Virus record (IMG/VR): IMGVR_UViG_2162886015_000003
Span: 1 to 50,338 of that record
Reading direction: 5' to 3' (one strand)
Length of the DNA stretch: 50,338 nucleotides
Source: a virus
Below are positions 26,421-32,509 of this stretch, one piece after another. The notes beneath the pieces were generated by a model. That model did not search any database. It saw only the letters and a list, made by a program, of their open reading frames with translations, and was not told the origin of the DNA. The position numbers and the translations under genes are program-made. How positions within the stretch are numbered: position 1 is the stretch's first letter; the number at the start of each line of letters is the position of its first letter.

Positions 26421-28442
26421 CTATGCAAGACGGCTTGCGAATGATTTTCGACCGGGCTTTGCGGCGGGCGCCGCGACCGCTTGACTCGCCATCGGTGCGG
26501 CCACTGCCGCCATATCAGCCGGCGGCTCGACAATCACAGGTTCGACGTCGACGCCATCCGAGACGTACGGTTGCGATGTGATCTCAGCCCGCTTATTCAG
26601 CTTCAACCCGTAATGAATCAGCCCGCACAGCGCGGCATATGAGTACACCGCCAAGTCGAGCGCCTCATTCGCGCGGCCCGGCGGCAATTCCCACACACGA
26701 TATTTCTGACCGTTCGCCTGCTTGACGATCGATCGCTCGGAGACGAGCTGTGCAAAAAAGTTGATGTCGCGATCTGTCGGGTAGTGCATATACCCCGGCG
26801 GATAGACGAGCGAGCCCTCCCGCTCCTCGGCCTCGAGGTGCAGCCGGTATCGGATCACGTCTTTCGCGGCGTTCACGCCGATGATGATCGGGCGGTACTT
26901 CGATTTATTGCGCAGGCTTGGCTTGCTGGTCGGCCAGACCGGGTTGCGCTTGCCGGCGATCGCCGACTCACCTTTGATCGCCCACACGCGCCGGCGGATC
27001 CGCGCCTTACAGAACTCATAGACCTTCTGTGTGTGGTGGCCGCCAGAGTCGATACATGCGGCCTCGACCTTGAACGGGCGGCCATCAGCACGACGCCATT
27101 GGCGCATCAGGTATGCGTCAACCTCATTCCATACGTCATCGCTCTCAGGGTCGCCATCGATCACGGTGTGGTCGATCGACCACCGCTCCTCGTTGCGCCC
27201 CCAACCAACCGTTTCGAGCTCGACACGATCGTCCTGGACGTCGCCCGATACCGTAATGACCGCGACGCCGTCAGGCACTTCTCCGGCCCACACCTCGGTG
27301 CGCGCCGCGAGCGCAGCCTCTTTCAGAGCCCGCTCGCCGCGGTCTTCGTATGTCTCACCGAGTACCAGGTTGATGAAGGTCTGACGGGCAAGCGGATCGT
27401 CCTTAACCTCAAGCCACTCGGCTACGAGGTTTTCCCAGCAAGCATTCGGGAACAGGCTGTAGCCGGCCCAGATATGAAAGCCCGCGTGCCCATTGAATGG
27501 CCTCTCCGCGCGCCACTCGCCGCGCTCAACCATTTCCGGCTTGTCGACATCCTTGATGATGCAGCCGGTAACCTTGCAAACGTAGTAGACGGTCTCGGGC
27601 AAGCCGTTGCCGTTCTCGTCTTTTTCCCACTTCATACCGTGAGGTGTATCCGGGCCGCCCCACTCGAGCACCTGAAACTCACCGCAATGCGGGCACGGCA
27701 CGTAATAGCGCCGCTGGTCGCTCTTTTCAAAGCTCTTCTCGATCCGGCTGAAGCCTTTCACGGTCGGAGTCGAGCCCATGATGATCTTGCGGTTCCAGAA
27801 TGATTCGGTCCGCTTGATACCCAGCTTGATCTGGTCGCCCTCTTTGCCGGCGCCCTGAATTGGATACCCGTCAATTTCGTCAAACTCAACGATACGGGCC
27901 GTGATCCGGCGGAAGCCGCCCGGGCTATTCGCGCCCACGAACGACATCGACGCGCCATTGCGGAAGACGCGCTTCAGCATCTTCTGCTTCGAATCCTTCG
28001 CCTTCAGATCGCCAACGATCTCAGCGAGCACAGGCGTGTCGCGCAGCATCGGCTCGATTTCAGTCGTGCTGTAATCCTCGGCATCTTCGACGCGGGGCTG
28101 CACGACCAGGATTGGCGACGGATCCTGATGGATGAAATACCCGGCGATGTGGTCGAGTATCTTGGTATATCCGACGCGCGCCGACTTCTGCACCGTGATC
28201 GTCTCGACTGACGGGTCCGTCACGGCGTCCATGATCCCGTTCTGATACGGGAATGCGTGGAAGCGCCCGGTCTGGGCACTCGTCTCGCGCGACATCTGGG
28301 CATACTTCTTCGCCCACTCACTTAGCGAAAGCTTCGGCGGCGGCTGAATGTTTCGCCGGCGTGCGTCGAGCAACCGGCGCAGGAGTTCCGAATACCCGTT
28401 GGCATAGCGCCGCGCGTCAGGCGGTGCCTCCAACTCCATCAC
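26421..28442 (-). CDS. Terminase large subunit (lambda GpA family)
   Basis: A 673-residue packaging motor of the lambda GpA type. The ATPase has a Walker A-like TVQKSARVGYTK at residues 83-94 and Walker B IVEFDEID at 184-191, followed by an IMGSTPT coupling motif. A CPHCGEFQ zinc knuckle and the nuclease domain with VSGDVQDDRVELE and IDSGGHHTQKVYEF follow. GpA-type enzymes cut at cos sites, so a cos phage with cohesive ends is expected. It overlaps the small subunit gene by 26 bases. Confidence 0.95.
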   Translation of the reverse strand: MMELEAPPDARRYANGYSELLRRLLDARRRNIQPPPKLSLSEWAKKYAQMSRETSAQTGRFHAFPYQNGIMDAVTDPSVETITVQKSARVGYTKILDHIAGYFIHQDPSPILVVQPRVEDAEDYSTTEIEPMLRDTPVLAEIVGDLKAKDSKQKMLKRVFRNGASMSFVGANSPGGFRRITARIVEFDEIDGYPIQGAGKEGDQIKLGIKRTESFWNRKIIMGSTPTVKGFSRIEKSFEKSDQRRYYVPCPHCGEFQVLEWGGPDTPHGMKWEKDENGNGLPETVYYVCKVTGCIIKDVDKPEMVERGEWRAERPFNGHAGFHIWAGYSLFPNACWENLVAEWLEVKDDPLARQTFINLVLGETYEDRGERALKEAALAARTEVWAGEVPDGVAVITVSGDVQDDRVELETVGWGRNEERWSIDHTVIDGDPESDDVWNEVDAYLMRQWRRADGRPFKVEAACIDSGGHHTQKVYEFCKARIRRRVWAIKGESAIAGKRNPVWPTSKPSLRNKSKYRPIIIGVNAAKDVIRYRLHLEAEEREGSLVYPPGYMHYPTDRDINFFAQLVSERSIVKQANGQKYRVWELPPGRANEALDLAVYSYAALCGLIHYGLKLNKRAEITSQPYVSDGVDVEPVIVEPPADMAAVAAPMASQAVAAPAAKPGRKSFASRLA

Positions 28443-29007
28443 GGGTTAGCTCCTCAAGCGCATGGACGATCATCTCCTGCAGCGCATCCTGCACCTCGAG
28501 GACGGTCCTTAGTCGATGGATCAAGGGCGCCTGCTCGGCCGGGATGGCCAGGAGCTTCGTGCGCACCTTTGCATATTCTTCGCCGACAGCCTTTGCGACG
28601 TCGGCCACAGCCACGACGAGTCCTGACTTCTGGTCGTACTCAAGCTGGTTCAGCAGCGCGAGGTAGTTCTCCTTCATGCACCGCGCTTCGTCGTAGTCGA
28701 GCTCGGTCCCGGTCGCCGCAAGTATTCGCCCCGCGGCATCGGCCGGCGTCTCGTCCGGGCGCACTGTTACCTCGGCATCCGACGGGGTAACAGTTTTTTT
28801 TGCCGGTCTCGGCGTTGTTACCTTGCCGTCCTGGGTAACACTTTGGGTAACAGATGCAATGCCATCGCGACGGTATCTTTTCAGGTTAGCGTTCGATGCA
28901 TCGACATCGACCTCATCGCCCGCAAACACAAGCCAGCCGCGCTCCTTCCACTTTGTCACCGTCTTGCGGCTGACGCCGTGAAGCTCCGCGAATGCACTTT
29001 GCTTCAT
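28417..29007 (-). CDS. Terminase small subunit-like protein (Nu1-like)
   Basis: A 196-residue protein with an N-terminal winged helix-turn-helix (FAELHGVSRKTVTKWKERGW), a low-complexity Thr/Val/Pro middle (residues 50-85) and a helical C-terminal part that should bind the large subunit. This is the Nu1-like layout. The ATG lacks a clear ribosome site; instead two GGGTAACA repeats lie directly before it, and more copies lie within the coding region. An eight-A run in the middle of the coding strand could cause slippage. Confidence 0.82.
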   Translation of the reverse strand: MKQSAFAELHGVSRKTVTKWKERGWLVFAGDEVDVDASNANLKRYRRDGIASVTQSVTQDGKVTTPRPAKKTVTPSDAEVTVRPDETPADAAGRILAATGTELDYDEARCMKENYLALLNQLEYDQKSGLVVAVADVAKAVGEEYAKVRTKLLAIPAEQAPLIHRLRTVLEVQDALQEMIVHALEELTRDGVGGTA

Positions 29008-29031
29008 GTCTGGTTTGTTACCCTGTTACCC
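28764..29031. repeat. Array of seven GGTAACA motifs across terS
   Basis: Seven copies of GGTAACA occur in about 270 bases. Plus-strand copies begin near 28786, 28834 and 28846. Copies on the other strand (TGTTACC) begin at 28765, 28817, 29017 and 29025. The last two form a nine-base-spaced tandem just before the terS start. A near copy (TGTCACC) lies at 28954. Motifs inside the gene encode repeated Val-Thr pairs. Position suggests binding sites for the small terminase subunit (a cosB-like region) or another DNA-binding protein. Confidence 0.65.
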
Positions 29032-29153
29032 AAATTTCAAAACTGTGTAGCCAGCCGAAGATCGGGGCGCGCAATGCCCGTGGCTTAAAAAACCCTCCGG
29101 GAAGGACCCGCTCGTTTTCAATATGCTTTCATGCACCATCATGGTGAGGAATC
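29032..29153. other. Non-coding stretch upstream of terS, possible cos region
   Basis: No gene is seen here. It contains a weak leftward terminator-like element at 29087-29106 and the 13-base palindrome CACCAT-c-ATGGTG at 29134-29146. In lambda-type phages cos lies just before the small terminase gene, so this is one candidate place for the cut site; the exact nick sites cannot be read from a circular sequence. Confidence 0.35.
29087..29106 (-). terminator. Weak leftward terminator candidate
   Basis: On the minus strand CCTTCCCGGAGGG is followed by six T. The stem is only four to five pairs, so termination may be weak. Confidence 0.35.
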
Positions 29154-29831
29154 CTACCGGGTCGCCGTCGCCATAGCCGCAGCCAGTTCGCGCGCGAAGG
29201 CTGCGCCGAAACCTGCGTTGACCGTCCGCGTGGCTGAGTCGAAGTAGTTGAGTTTCTGCTTGACCGGCAGCGCATCGCCGAATCGAATCAGCAACTTCAA
29301 TGCGCCAAGATGCTCGTCGTACACACCACCACGTTCTTTACGTTTGCGCTTTGCTTTGCCCTTGCGCGTCACGTCCAACCGCTGCCACACACCGTTGATC
29401 GGACCGTGCTTCGTCTCGACCGCACCAATGAAGATGTCGGCTCGGCCTTTGAGCCGGCCGAGCGTCATGCGCGGGATCTGCAGGTACTGGTTTAGGTTGA
29501 TGTCTTTCGGGTTCAGCAATGCCTGGCTGTTCAGCTTGTGCACACCGCCGAACTCGTATGGCTGCAGGTATTCAGAGGCCTTGTCCATCACGAAGACTTT
29601 CGCTTCGAGGTCGGCTTTCGTTGCTGGCTTGGTCCGAACAGACTTCAGCGTGAATGGCGAAGGATTGCGGAAAGTCGCCTTCATGCGATCAACTTCGCCC
29701 TGCTGAACCTCTTTCGCCAGCGCGGTCAACGCACGCGCGGTAGCGAATGGCACTTGCTTGGCAGCAAAATCATCCAGATCGCGCGTCAGCCTCTTGAGGT
29801 TCGAACTGATGTTGATCTCGAAGCCAGCCAT
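29154..29831 (-). CDS. Minor tail Z-like protein
   Basis: A 225-residue basic protein. The first 60 residues (LTRDLDDFAAKQVPFATARALTALAKEVQQ) and NPSPFTLKSVRTKPATK resemble lambda gpZ-type minor tail proteins, which complete the tail end that joins the head. A Lys/Arg-rich segment (KGKAKRKRKERGG) lies in the middle. It is unusual to find it upstream of the terminase rather than among tail genes. The ATG overlaps the upstream stop as TAATG. Confidence 0.5.
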   Translation of the reverse strand: MAGFEINISSNLKRLTRDLDDFAAKQVPFATARALTALAKEVQQGEVDRMKATFRNPSPFTLKSVRTKPATKADLEAKVFVMDKASEYLQPYEFGGVHKLNSQALLNPKDINLNQYLQIPRMTLGRLKGRADIFIGAVETKHGPINGVWQRLDVTRKGKAKRKRKERGGVYDEHLGALKLLIRFGDALPVKQKLNYFDSATRTVNAGFGAAFARELAAAMATATR

Positions 29832-30115
29832 TACCGCTTGATCCATGCGGCTGGCAGCGCACTTTCATCGCATGCGGCCGGATACAGCGGAACGTCGCGC
29901 ATCATTCGCGATGCCGCACCGGGCGGGAATGCGGTCAGCGATACGAGAGCAATTGCGCCTTCGGGCAGCAATGCTGCATCGGTCGTTGCATCGGTGACGA
30001 TTGCCGCCACCTGGCGCTGTCCGTTTTGCCAGATCGCCGCACGCACGAGTGCAGTCGACCCAAGAAGGGTATCTGCATCGATTGCGTCGACGGTCTTTTT
30101 TGCTGTCCGGGACAT
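29831..30115 (-). CDS. Hypothetical protein of the late region
   Basis: A 94-residue protein I do not recognise. It is Ala-rich with a short N-terminal helix and no membrane segment or cysteine motif beyond one Cys. It is translationally coupled to the gpZ-like gene, so a structural or assembly role is plausible. A leftward terminator hairpin lies upstream. Confidence 0.65.
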   Translation of the reverse strand: MSRTAKKTVDAIDADTLLGSTALVRAAIWQNGQRQVAAIVTDATTDAALLPEGAIALVSLTAFPPGAASRMMRDVPLYPAACDESALPAAWIKR

Positions 30116-31427: not shown

Positions 31428-32246
31428 CTACTGACCCGGCTGGCGGGTTATCGCGTCTATCTCGCCCCATCCATTGCGAAGACGGCCATATATGAGATGT
31501 CGACTCCAGCCACGCAATTCCGCCCATTGCGCGACAGTGAGGTCCTGTCCGTCGTGCGCGATGCGTCGATTGTTCCTGCGGTTGTTTTGCTGGGTCTTCA
31601 TCGTCGCCCAAATGCAATTATCGGGCTCATAATTGCCATTCACGTTTTCGCGCTCAAGCGTCATTCCAGTCGGCCGCTCGCCCATGTCGGCTAGAAAGTT
31701 TTCGTATTTGCTCCATCTCTCACAAACCGAGATGCCCCGTTCGCGATAGTTCCGGCCAATCGCACCGCGCGCCGTGTTGCATCTATGCAGCATTGACCGA
31801 TATGCAACCCATGTGGGGTTTCTCCGGCCGTTGCCTGCGTGTCCGTGGGTTGTTTTTCGCTCACGGAGAATCTCTATGGCGAGACATCCACATGACCTGG
31901 TATCGCCGGATTTAAGCTTATCGGCGCGAACGGTTGTTTCTTTGCCGCACTCGCAGGCGCATCGGCACAAGATCGAGCCGCGCTTTCCAGATGAAATCCT
32001 CTCCAACACCATCAGCCGACCAAAGCGATCGCCAACCCTAACGCTTCCGGGCGCATCCTCACCACGCTTGCGCAGAGTCTCGGCCCGTAAGCAGCCGCAT
32101 GAGCGCGACTGTGCTCGACGAAGTGCTGACGCCGGGATCTCCTTTTGATTTCCGCAGTCGCACGCGCATCGCATCTTTCGCCGGTCAGTTTCCGAGATAC
32201 CCAAAACGACCAAACGACCAACCCGATCGCCAATGTTTAGCGTCAT
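31428..32246 (-). CDS. HNH-like homing nuclease with duplicated zinc ribbon
   Basis: A 272-residue protein. Two related zinc-ribbon-like units lie at about residues 3-56 and 70-127, each with a VGDRFGRLMVLE-like start, two CxC pairs and SCGCL. The nuclease-like part follows (YRSMLHRCN, RGISVCERW, NYEPDNCIWAT), as in phage HNH/AP2-associated homing nucleases, and the C-terminal 40 residues form a helix-turn-helix (LTVAQWAELRGWSRHLIYGR). It could be a selfish mobile gene in the operon. The ATG overlaps the previous stop (TGATG). Confidence 0.72.
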   Translation of the reverse strand: MTLNIGDRVGRLVVLGISETDRRKMRCACDCGNQKEIPASALRRAQSRSCGCLRAETLRKRGEDAPGSVRVGDRFGRLMVLERISSGKRGSILCRCACECGKETTVRADKLKSGDTRSCGCLAIEILRERKTTHGHAGNGRRNPTWVAYRSMLHRCNTARGAIGRNYRERGISVCERWSKYENFLADMGERPTGMTLERENVNGNYEPDNCIWATMKTQQNNRRNNRRIAHDGQDLTVAQWAELRGWSRHLIYGRLRNGWGEIDAITRQPGQ

Positions 32247-32509
32247 CACATCACCACCGTGAAGTTAATTCCCTTATCCACAAACCATGAAACGAGGTCG
32301 TTACGGATTTGTGTGTTGCGGGGAAATGGGTATTCGACTTGCAGCATCCCCTCATCTGGCACGGTCGTTGTGCGGCGCACCTCGCCAACAAGCGGGCATC
32401 CGTCAAATGCAAGGATGAGAGCGCCGCTGATGTCGTCGATGTGCGATGCACTGCTTTCGCGAAGATCGGCAGGAACGTCTTCAATGTTGATGTATGCAAA
32501 TGCGCTCAT
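32246..32509 (-). CDS. Hypothetical protein
   Basis: An 87-residue soluble protein of mixed helix and strand with no recognised domain. It overlaps both neighbours by a few bases and so belongs to the early operon. Confidence 0.65.
   Translation of the reverse strand: MSAFAYINIEDVPADLRESSASHIDDISGALILAFDGCPLVGEVRRTTTVPDEGMLQVEYPFPRNTQIRNDLVSWFVDKGINFTVVM

Follow-up and report, generated by a model that had tools for sequence, protein, structure and literature searches.

We suggest that the repeated word GGTAACA in and before the small terminase gene of this virus is a multi-box cosB of a lambda-type cos site, bound by the wHTH domain of TerS and half embedded in terS itself, an assignment we hold to be very probable. 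The window, that is the whole stretch of 50,338 bases that was analysed, contains seven exact copies of GGTAACA, all at 28765-29030 and on both strands, and none elsewhere. Shuffled sequences contain 1.83 copies on average and none of 100 shuffles reaches seven; for seven copies within 267 bases, a rough scan bound that corrects for every 7-mer and every position comes to ~2e-12. The sequence-only reading of this DNA had held that seven exact copies in both orientations are beyond chance, with two in tandem before the gene start and the others within the coding region. The count, the shuffles and the scan bound bear this out: a tandem pair lies ahead of the terS ATG (29007, minus strand) and five copies lie within the gene.

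That reading had also proposed a cosB-like function, which now gains support from the fixed position of the boxes relative to a cos end determined experimentally in the relative BZS1, from their conservation at the level of DNA rather than protein in more than 100 phages, from the joint switching of the box word and the TerS recognition helix, and from a DNA-binding fold that matches lambda-type TerS.

Counted from the predicted left cohesive end, the predicted cosB boxes 1 (29024-29030) and 2 (29016-29022), both GGTAACA on the minus strand, cover bp 48-54 and bp 56-62 and form the R3-equivalent pair. Predicted boxes 3 to 7 lie in the part of terS that encodes the linker. Box 3 (28846-28852, plus strand, codons V53-T54), box 4 (28834-28840, plus strand, V57-T58) and box 6 (28786-28792, plus strand, V73-T74) are inverted with respect to boxes 1 and 2. 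Box 5 (28816-28822, minus strand, V63-T64) and box 7 (28765-28771, minus strand, V80-T81) are direct.

The anchor for these positions is Serratia phage vB_SspM_BZS1 (MT843275). PhageTerm predicted, and PCR and sequencing bore out, that its virion DNA carries the 12-base 5′ cohesive ends GCATTGCGCGCC (PMC7556043); the BZS1 record opens at GCATTGCGCGCC, 74 bases upstream of terS. The window carries the same 12 bases at 29066-29077 on the minus strand; by this sequence identity we predict them to be cosN and the 12-base 5′ cohesive end, with bp 1 of the left end at 29077. The first box begins at bp 48 from the end in the window, in BZS1 and in 59 of the 78 scored relatives. The distance from the tandem pair to the cohesive end is fixed at 46-50 bp, while the distance from the pair to the ATG varies. 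A cosQ-like GGGTCCT (29103-29109, minus strand) starts 32 bp ahead of the left cohesive end, and almost all scored relatives have GGGTCC 27-31 bp ahead of their cosN motif. In lambda this heptamer, which we take to be its cosQ, starts 30 bp before the left end. The window thus has GGGTCCT at the distance of about 30 bp before the left end that is expected of a lambda-type cos site. Just before cos lies a gene of PHROG 1924, ‘minor tail protein’ (29154-29846, minus strand); the BZS1 paper notes for circular genomes that a comparable gene, p72, stays ahead of terS (PMC7556043).

In a second class of relatives the surroundings are the same, but the place of cosN is taken by a different, GGAGACGAAGACC-like sequence. 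In L007, L010, L051, L082, L111 and L191 this second cosN class is GGAGACGAAGACCCGCG-like and lies upstream of terS, with cosQ and the boxes unchanged, which suggests two cohesive-end types within one phage family.

The proteins encoded next to cos are also of the lambda type. terS (28417-29007, minus strand) encodes a terminase small subunit of 196 aa that belongs to PHROG 57 (E 1.6e-27), as does lambda Nu1. terL (26421-28442, minus strand) encodes a gpA-type large subunit (Pfam GpA_ATPase 8.3e-78, GpA_nuclease 2.8e-84). In the AlphaFold model of TerS (A3, 56 sequences) a wHTH at residues 3-46, with the recognition helix at 14-23, is followed by a linker at 48-77 with pLDDT below 50 and by a helical C-terminal domain at 88-188. 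The five in-gene boxes encode residues 53-54, 57-58, 63-64, 73-74 and 80-81; their codons thus fall in, or just past, the inter-domain linker. The closest PDB matches of the wHTH, found with VIA-align, are the lambda-type TerS domains 7lw0, 7lxs and 7lwr (Z 6.2-6.6, rmsd 1.1-1.5 over 45-47 residues; Z of 6 is modest for a 47-residue domain), and lambda gpNu1 (1j9i) matches with Z 5.0. Foldseek by itself gave weak hits only for TerS, and a profile search of solved structures with the TerS sequence returned nothing useful. Modelling of residues 1-55 from the single sequence gave a poor result (pLDDT 70), and the structural matches of that model were left out. The window terminase hence combines what marks the gpNu1 family, a wHTH of the gpNu1 fold in the same protein family and a gpA-type TerL partner.

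The C-terminal part of TerS varies among relatives. Two different ends (EYAKVRT... and ...RDAWLNWP...) follow the same DNA-binding domain and boxes in L082, L105, L109 and L107 compared with the window; the reader domain of TerS thus looks modular at the sequence level. Some terS frames appear to be broken by a frameshift or an early stop and still contain six or seven boxes (L111:2001-2191, L110:2001-2243). Elsewhere in the window, an ORF at 31428-32249 (minus strand) with repeated Cys-x-Cys-G patterns resembles an HNH/AP2-type endonuclease.

A protein search with TerS found BZS1, Citrobacter phage phiNP and Acetobacter phage phiAP1, together with 80 viral contigs and 27 bacterial-genome loci, the latter mostly from Burkholderiales and Pseudomonas. 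In the three named phages TerS, the cos region and the boxes are homologous to those of the window, the box being GGTAACA in BZS1 and phiNP and GTTGCA in phiAP1. A text search of the BZS1 paper found no mention of cosB, though the cos end is reported there (PMC7556043). Most relatives have the tandem pair 14-24 bases before the ATG and in-gene copies near +155, +167 or +174, +186, +203 or +215, and +224 or +236. Over 117 non-redundant loci there are 577 boxes in 62 kb around terS and 7 in 403 kb of flanks, a difference of about 500-fold. Of the 80 fetched loci with a tandem pair, 79 have it before a TerS and the exception ends at a contig edge. Three host genomes were searched, and two of them contain one tandem pair each, with coordinates inside the known terS locus. 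No comparable repeat occurs at the more distant TerS of Paracoccus Pyei1, Roseobacter CRP phages, ZRG1 and Bordetella PY223. In Pseudomonas phage Turba, terS is preceded by three to four copies of GGTTAAC/GTTAAC (L506:719-762), and the gene contains none.

The box word itself is not constant. We distinguish eight words, GGTAACA, GGTAACG, GGTAAA, GGTAAG, GGTTAAC, GGTTTAC, CTGACGA and GTTGCA, and in each type the upstream word is the same as the in-gene word; when each type is represented by one locus, just 2 of the 40,320 partner permutations score as well. At residues 14-18, the TerS recognition helix switches along with the box word. A helix that starts with RKT accompanies GGTAACA, KKT accompanies GGTAACG, PKT GGTAAA, EKT GGTAAG, KPA both GGTTAAC and GGTTTAC, KQS CTGACGA, and RPA GTTGCA. 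A tree of the C-terminal part of TerS alone requires the box type to change 14 times and the helix type 13 times. Nearly all pairings on the starred, well-supported branches are joint changes of box and helix; these give 4 independent pairs, all in the expected direction, too few for significance in a sign test (p 0.125). Some members of a type have mixed boxes (L051, L079). A ninth word, GTTTCCA, occurs in seven copies, three upstream and four in the linker, in Acidithiobacillus phage AcaML1 (L505:687-1020), whose TerS is merely 28% identical to that of L194. The AcaML1 boxes have the same two-cluster layout, and their core is similar to the GTTTCC that recurs in the cosB region of lambda.

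The repeats might be only a by-product of selection for a Val-Thr or Gly-Asn linker peptide, given that the boxes lie in a low-complexity linker and yield repeated dipeptides. According to the sequence-only reading the boxes force Val-Thr repeats in the protein. This holds in the window, where 5 of the 6 VT dipeptides are boxes and the Val-Thr codons are skewed to the box form (P ~6e-6 under the codon use of the genome); it does not hold as a general rule, since relatives read the same box as Gly-Asn. The in-gene boxes of relatives are inverted Val-Thr in 183 cases, direct Gly-Asn in 142 and direct Val-Thr in 57, so that one DNA word gives different peptides in different frames and orientations. 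The word is also present outside the gene, and upstream and in-gene copies switch jointly. In about nine phages (e.g. L107, L108, L351, L357, L383, L385, L415) the array sits in its entirety between cosN and the ATG, and the terS linker is free of boxes; the spacing from pair to array is there about 76-88 bp versus the usual ~178 bp, with a longer spacer in L375. Conservation acts on the DNA word and not on the peptide, independently of the coding frame. We reject selection at the peptide level on the grounds of the varied frames and orientations and the intergenic arrays, and consider it extremely improbable that the peptide explains the repeats.

Control of terS transcription or translation, by TerS or another regulator and with packaging uninvolved, had been named as the other possible role of the boxes. 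Several phages with intergenic arrays have the last box ending 2-3 bases ahead of the ATG, so a bound protein could block terS expression, and covariation with the TerS helix would fit autoregulation as well. However, the pair keeps 46-50 bp from the cohesive end whatever its distance to the ATG, a search of 28700-29300 turned up no sigma-70-like promoter, and five boxes deep inside a gene would be unusual for an operator. Positive evidence for such control did not emerge; we regard it as unlikely to be the role of the boxes, and autoregulation may be a side effect of them. Short repeated words beside an origin or an end can also be sites for host proteins, and the P1 pac repeats are Dam sites (PMC10028697). 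Recognition by a host protein or a modification enzyme in place of TerS is nevertheless very unlikely: the box word tracks the TerS recognition helix, one word form is uniform across Burkholderiales, Pseudomonas and Enterobacterales hosts, and GGTAACA contains no Dam site. At 28763-28794 on the plus strand, a consensus scan gives a terminator-like 12-pair stem made by two inverted boxes and followed by T8, the complement of the terS A8 run. This stem lies antisense inside terS, involves only 2 of the 7 boxes, has an expectation of 1.0 such sites per region in shuffles, and involves features, the orientation of the boxes and the A tract, that are not constant among relatives; it is probably incidental, and we give hardly any credence to the region being a transcription terminator or hairpin.

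With the boxes taken as a multi-box cosB, we propose the following mechanism. The TerS wHTH, with its recognition helix from residue 14, would read the 7-bp word, and TerS is thus inferred to bind the boxes. The first tandem pair would be met 48 bp inside the cohesive end, at the place of lambda R3, and the second array, with boxes in both orientations, some 178 bp deeper, within the stretch of terS that encodes the linker. This linker, presumably flexible, would join the DNA-binding and oligomerisation domains of TerS; sequence change is tolerated best in this part of the gene, which would explain why the array can live there. TerS multimers on both clusters would bridge the upstream pair and the distal array and loop or wrap the intervening DNA. 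The looped complex would place the gpA-type TerL at cosN for cutting of the 12-base cohesive end, which would be the role of the boxes in cleavage, and cosQ would act in termination. The IHF consensus is not enriched over shuffles in the spacer between the box clusters, and the bending step known from lambda is thus unsupported here.

We also consider, at slightly less than even likelihood, that the helix end (TerS 14-18) makes up a single movable cassette of specificity together with the spacer and the box array, in which reader and sites are co-transferred by recombination. Recombination would move them together because the sites lie inside the gene of their own reader. If so, phages could switch packaging specificity in one step, and there would be a readable helix-to-box code, with R, K, P or E at position 14 followed by K-T for GGTAACA, GGTAACG, GGTAAA and GGTAAG, respectively, and K-P-A for GGTTAAC. 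The cassette would then occur across proteobacterial phages and use nine or more box words, the AcaML1 word GTTTCCA among them.

TerS-DNA recognition is hard to study since TerS often binds weakly in vitro and its binding is not easily measured (PMC9611059). More than 100 natural cos sites are now at hand whose boxes are short and can be counted, along with several cases in which box and helix have changed to match. With this material, swap experiments can test the specificity code of a packaging terminase. It also allows predictions of which phages may package each other's DNA or serve satellites, and provides a simple sequence mark by which cos ends can be located in phages that lack annotation. 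We found no report of the motif or of this multi-box cosB in the literature searched, which includes few subscription journals.

Among known systems, the lambda cos site (cosQ-cosN-cosB with R3-I1-R2-R1, served by gpNu1/gpA) has a 12-base 5′ overhang and a TerS site near bp 50-60, as predicted for the window, and shares with it a PHROG 57 TerS, a gpA-type TerL and an arrangement of sites in either orientation (PMC4669245, PMC9026076); R3 of lambda covers bp 50-65 (PMC9026076). Unlike lambda, with its three 16-bp R sites, the window has seven 7-bp boxes, a tandem pair at the place of R3 and five boxes in terS, its IHF consensus is not enriched, and its box and overhang sequences differ. N15 has no IHF site (PMC9026076). 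It has a single R3 and, about 200 bp away, an inverted, non-essential rR2 inside terS, and so shares the layout of a site cluster before terS and an inverted site within it at a similar distance, 178 bp in the window (PMC4669245). Where N15 has one critical and one non-essential inverted site, the window has a pair and a five-box array. P1, in turn, is a headful packager. Its pac consists of seven TGATCA/G hexamers in two groups inside pacA, and is like the window in having seven short boxes in two groups that overlap a small-subunit gene whose product is thought to bind them (PMC10028697). The P1 boxes are Dam sites, every one of them within the gene, whereas the GGTAACA boxes contain no GATC, lie partly upstream, adjoin a predicted cos with defined ends, and change their word with the TerS helix. 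The defined 12-base ends of the relative BZS1 would speak against a headful pac without defined ends in the window phage. In P22, pac likewise lies inside the TerS gene (PMC9611059). The site described here has precedents in N15, with one accessory site in terS, and in P1, with seven pac hexamers in pacA; it joins a lambda-type cos to short boxes at a density like that of P1, together with natural switching of specificity.
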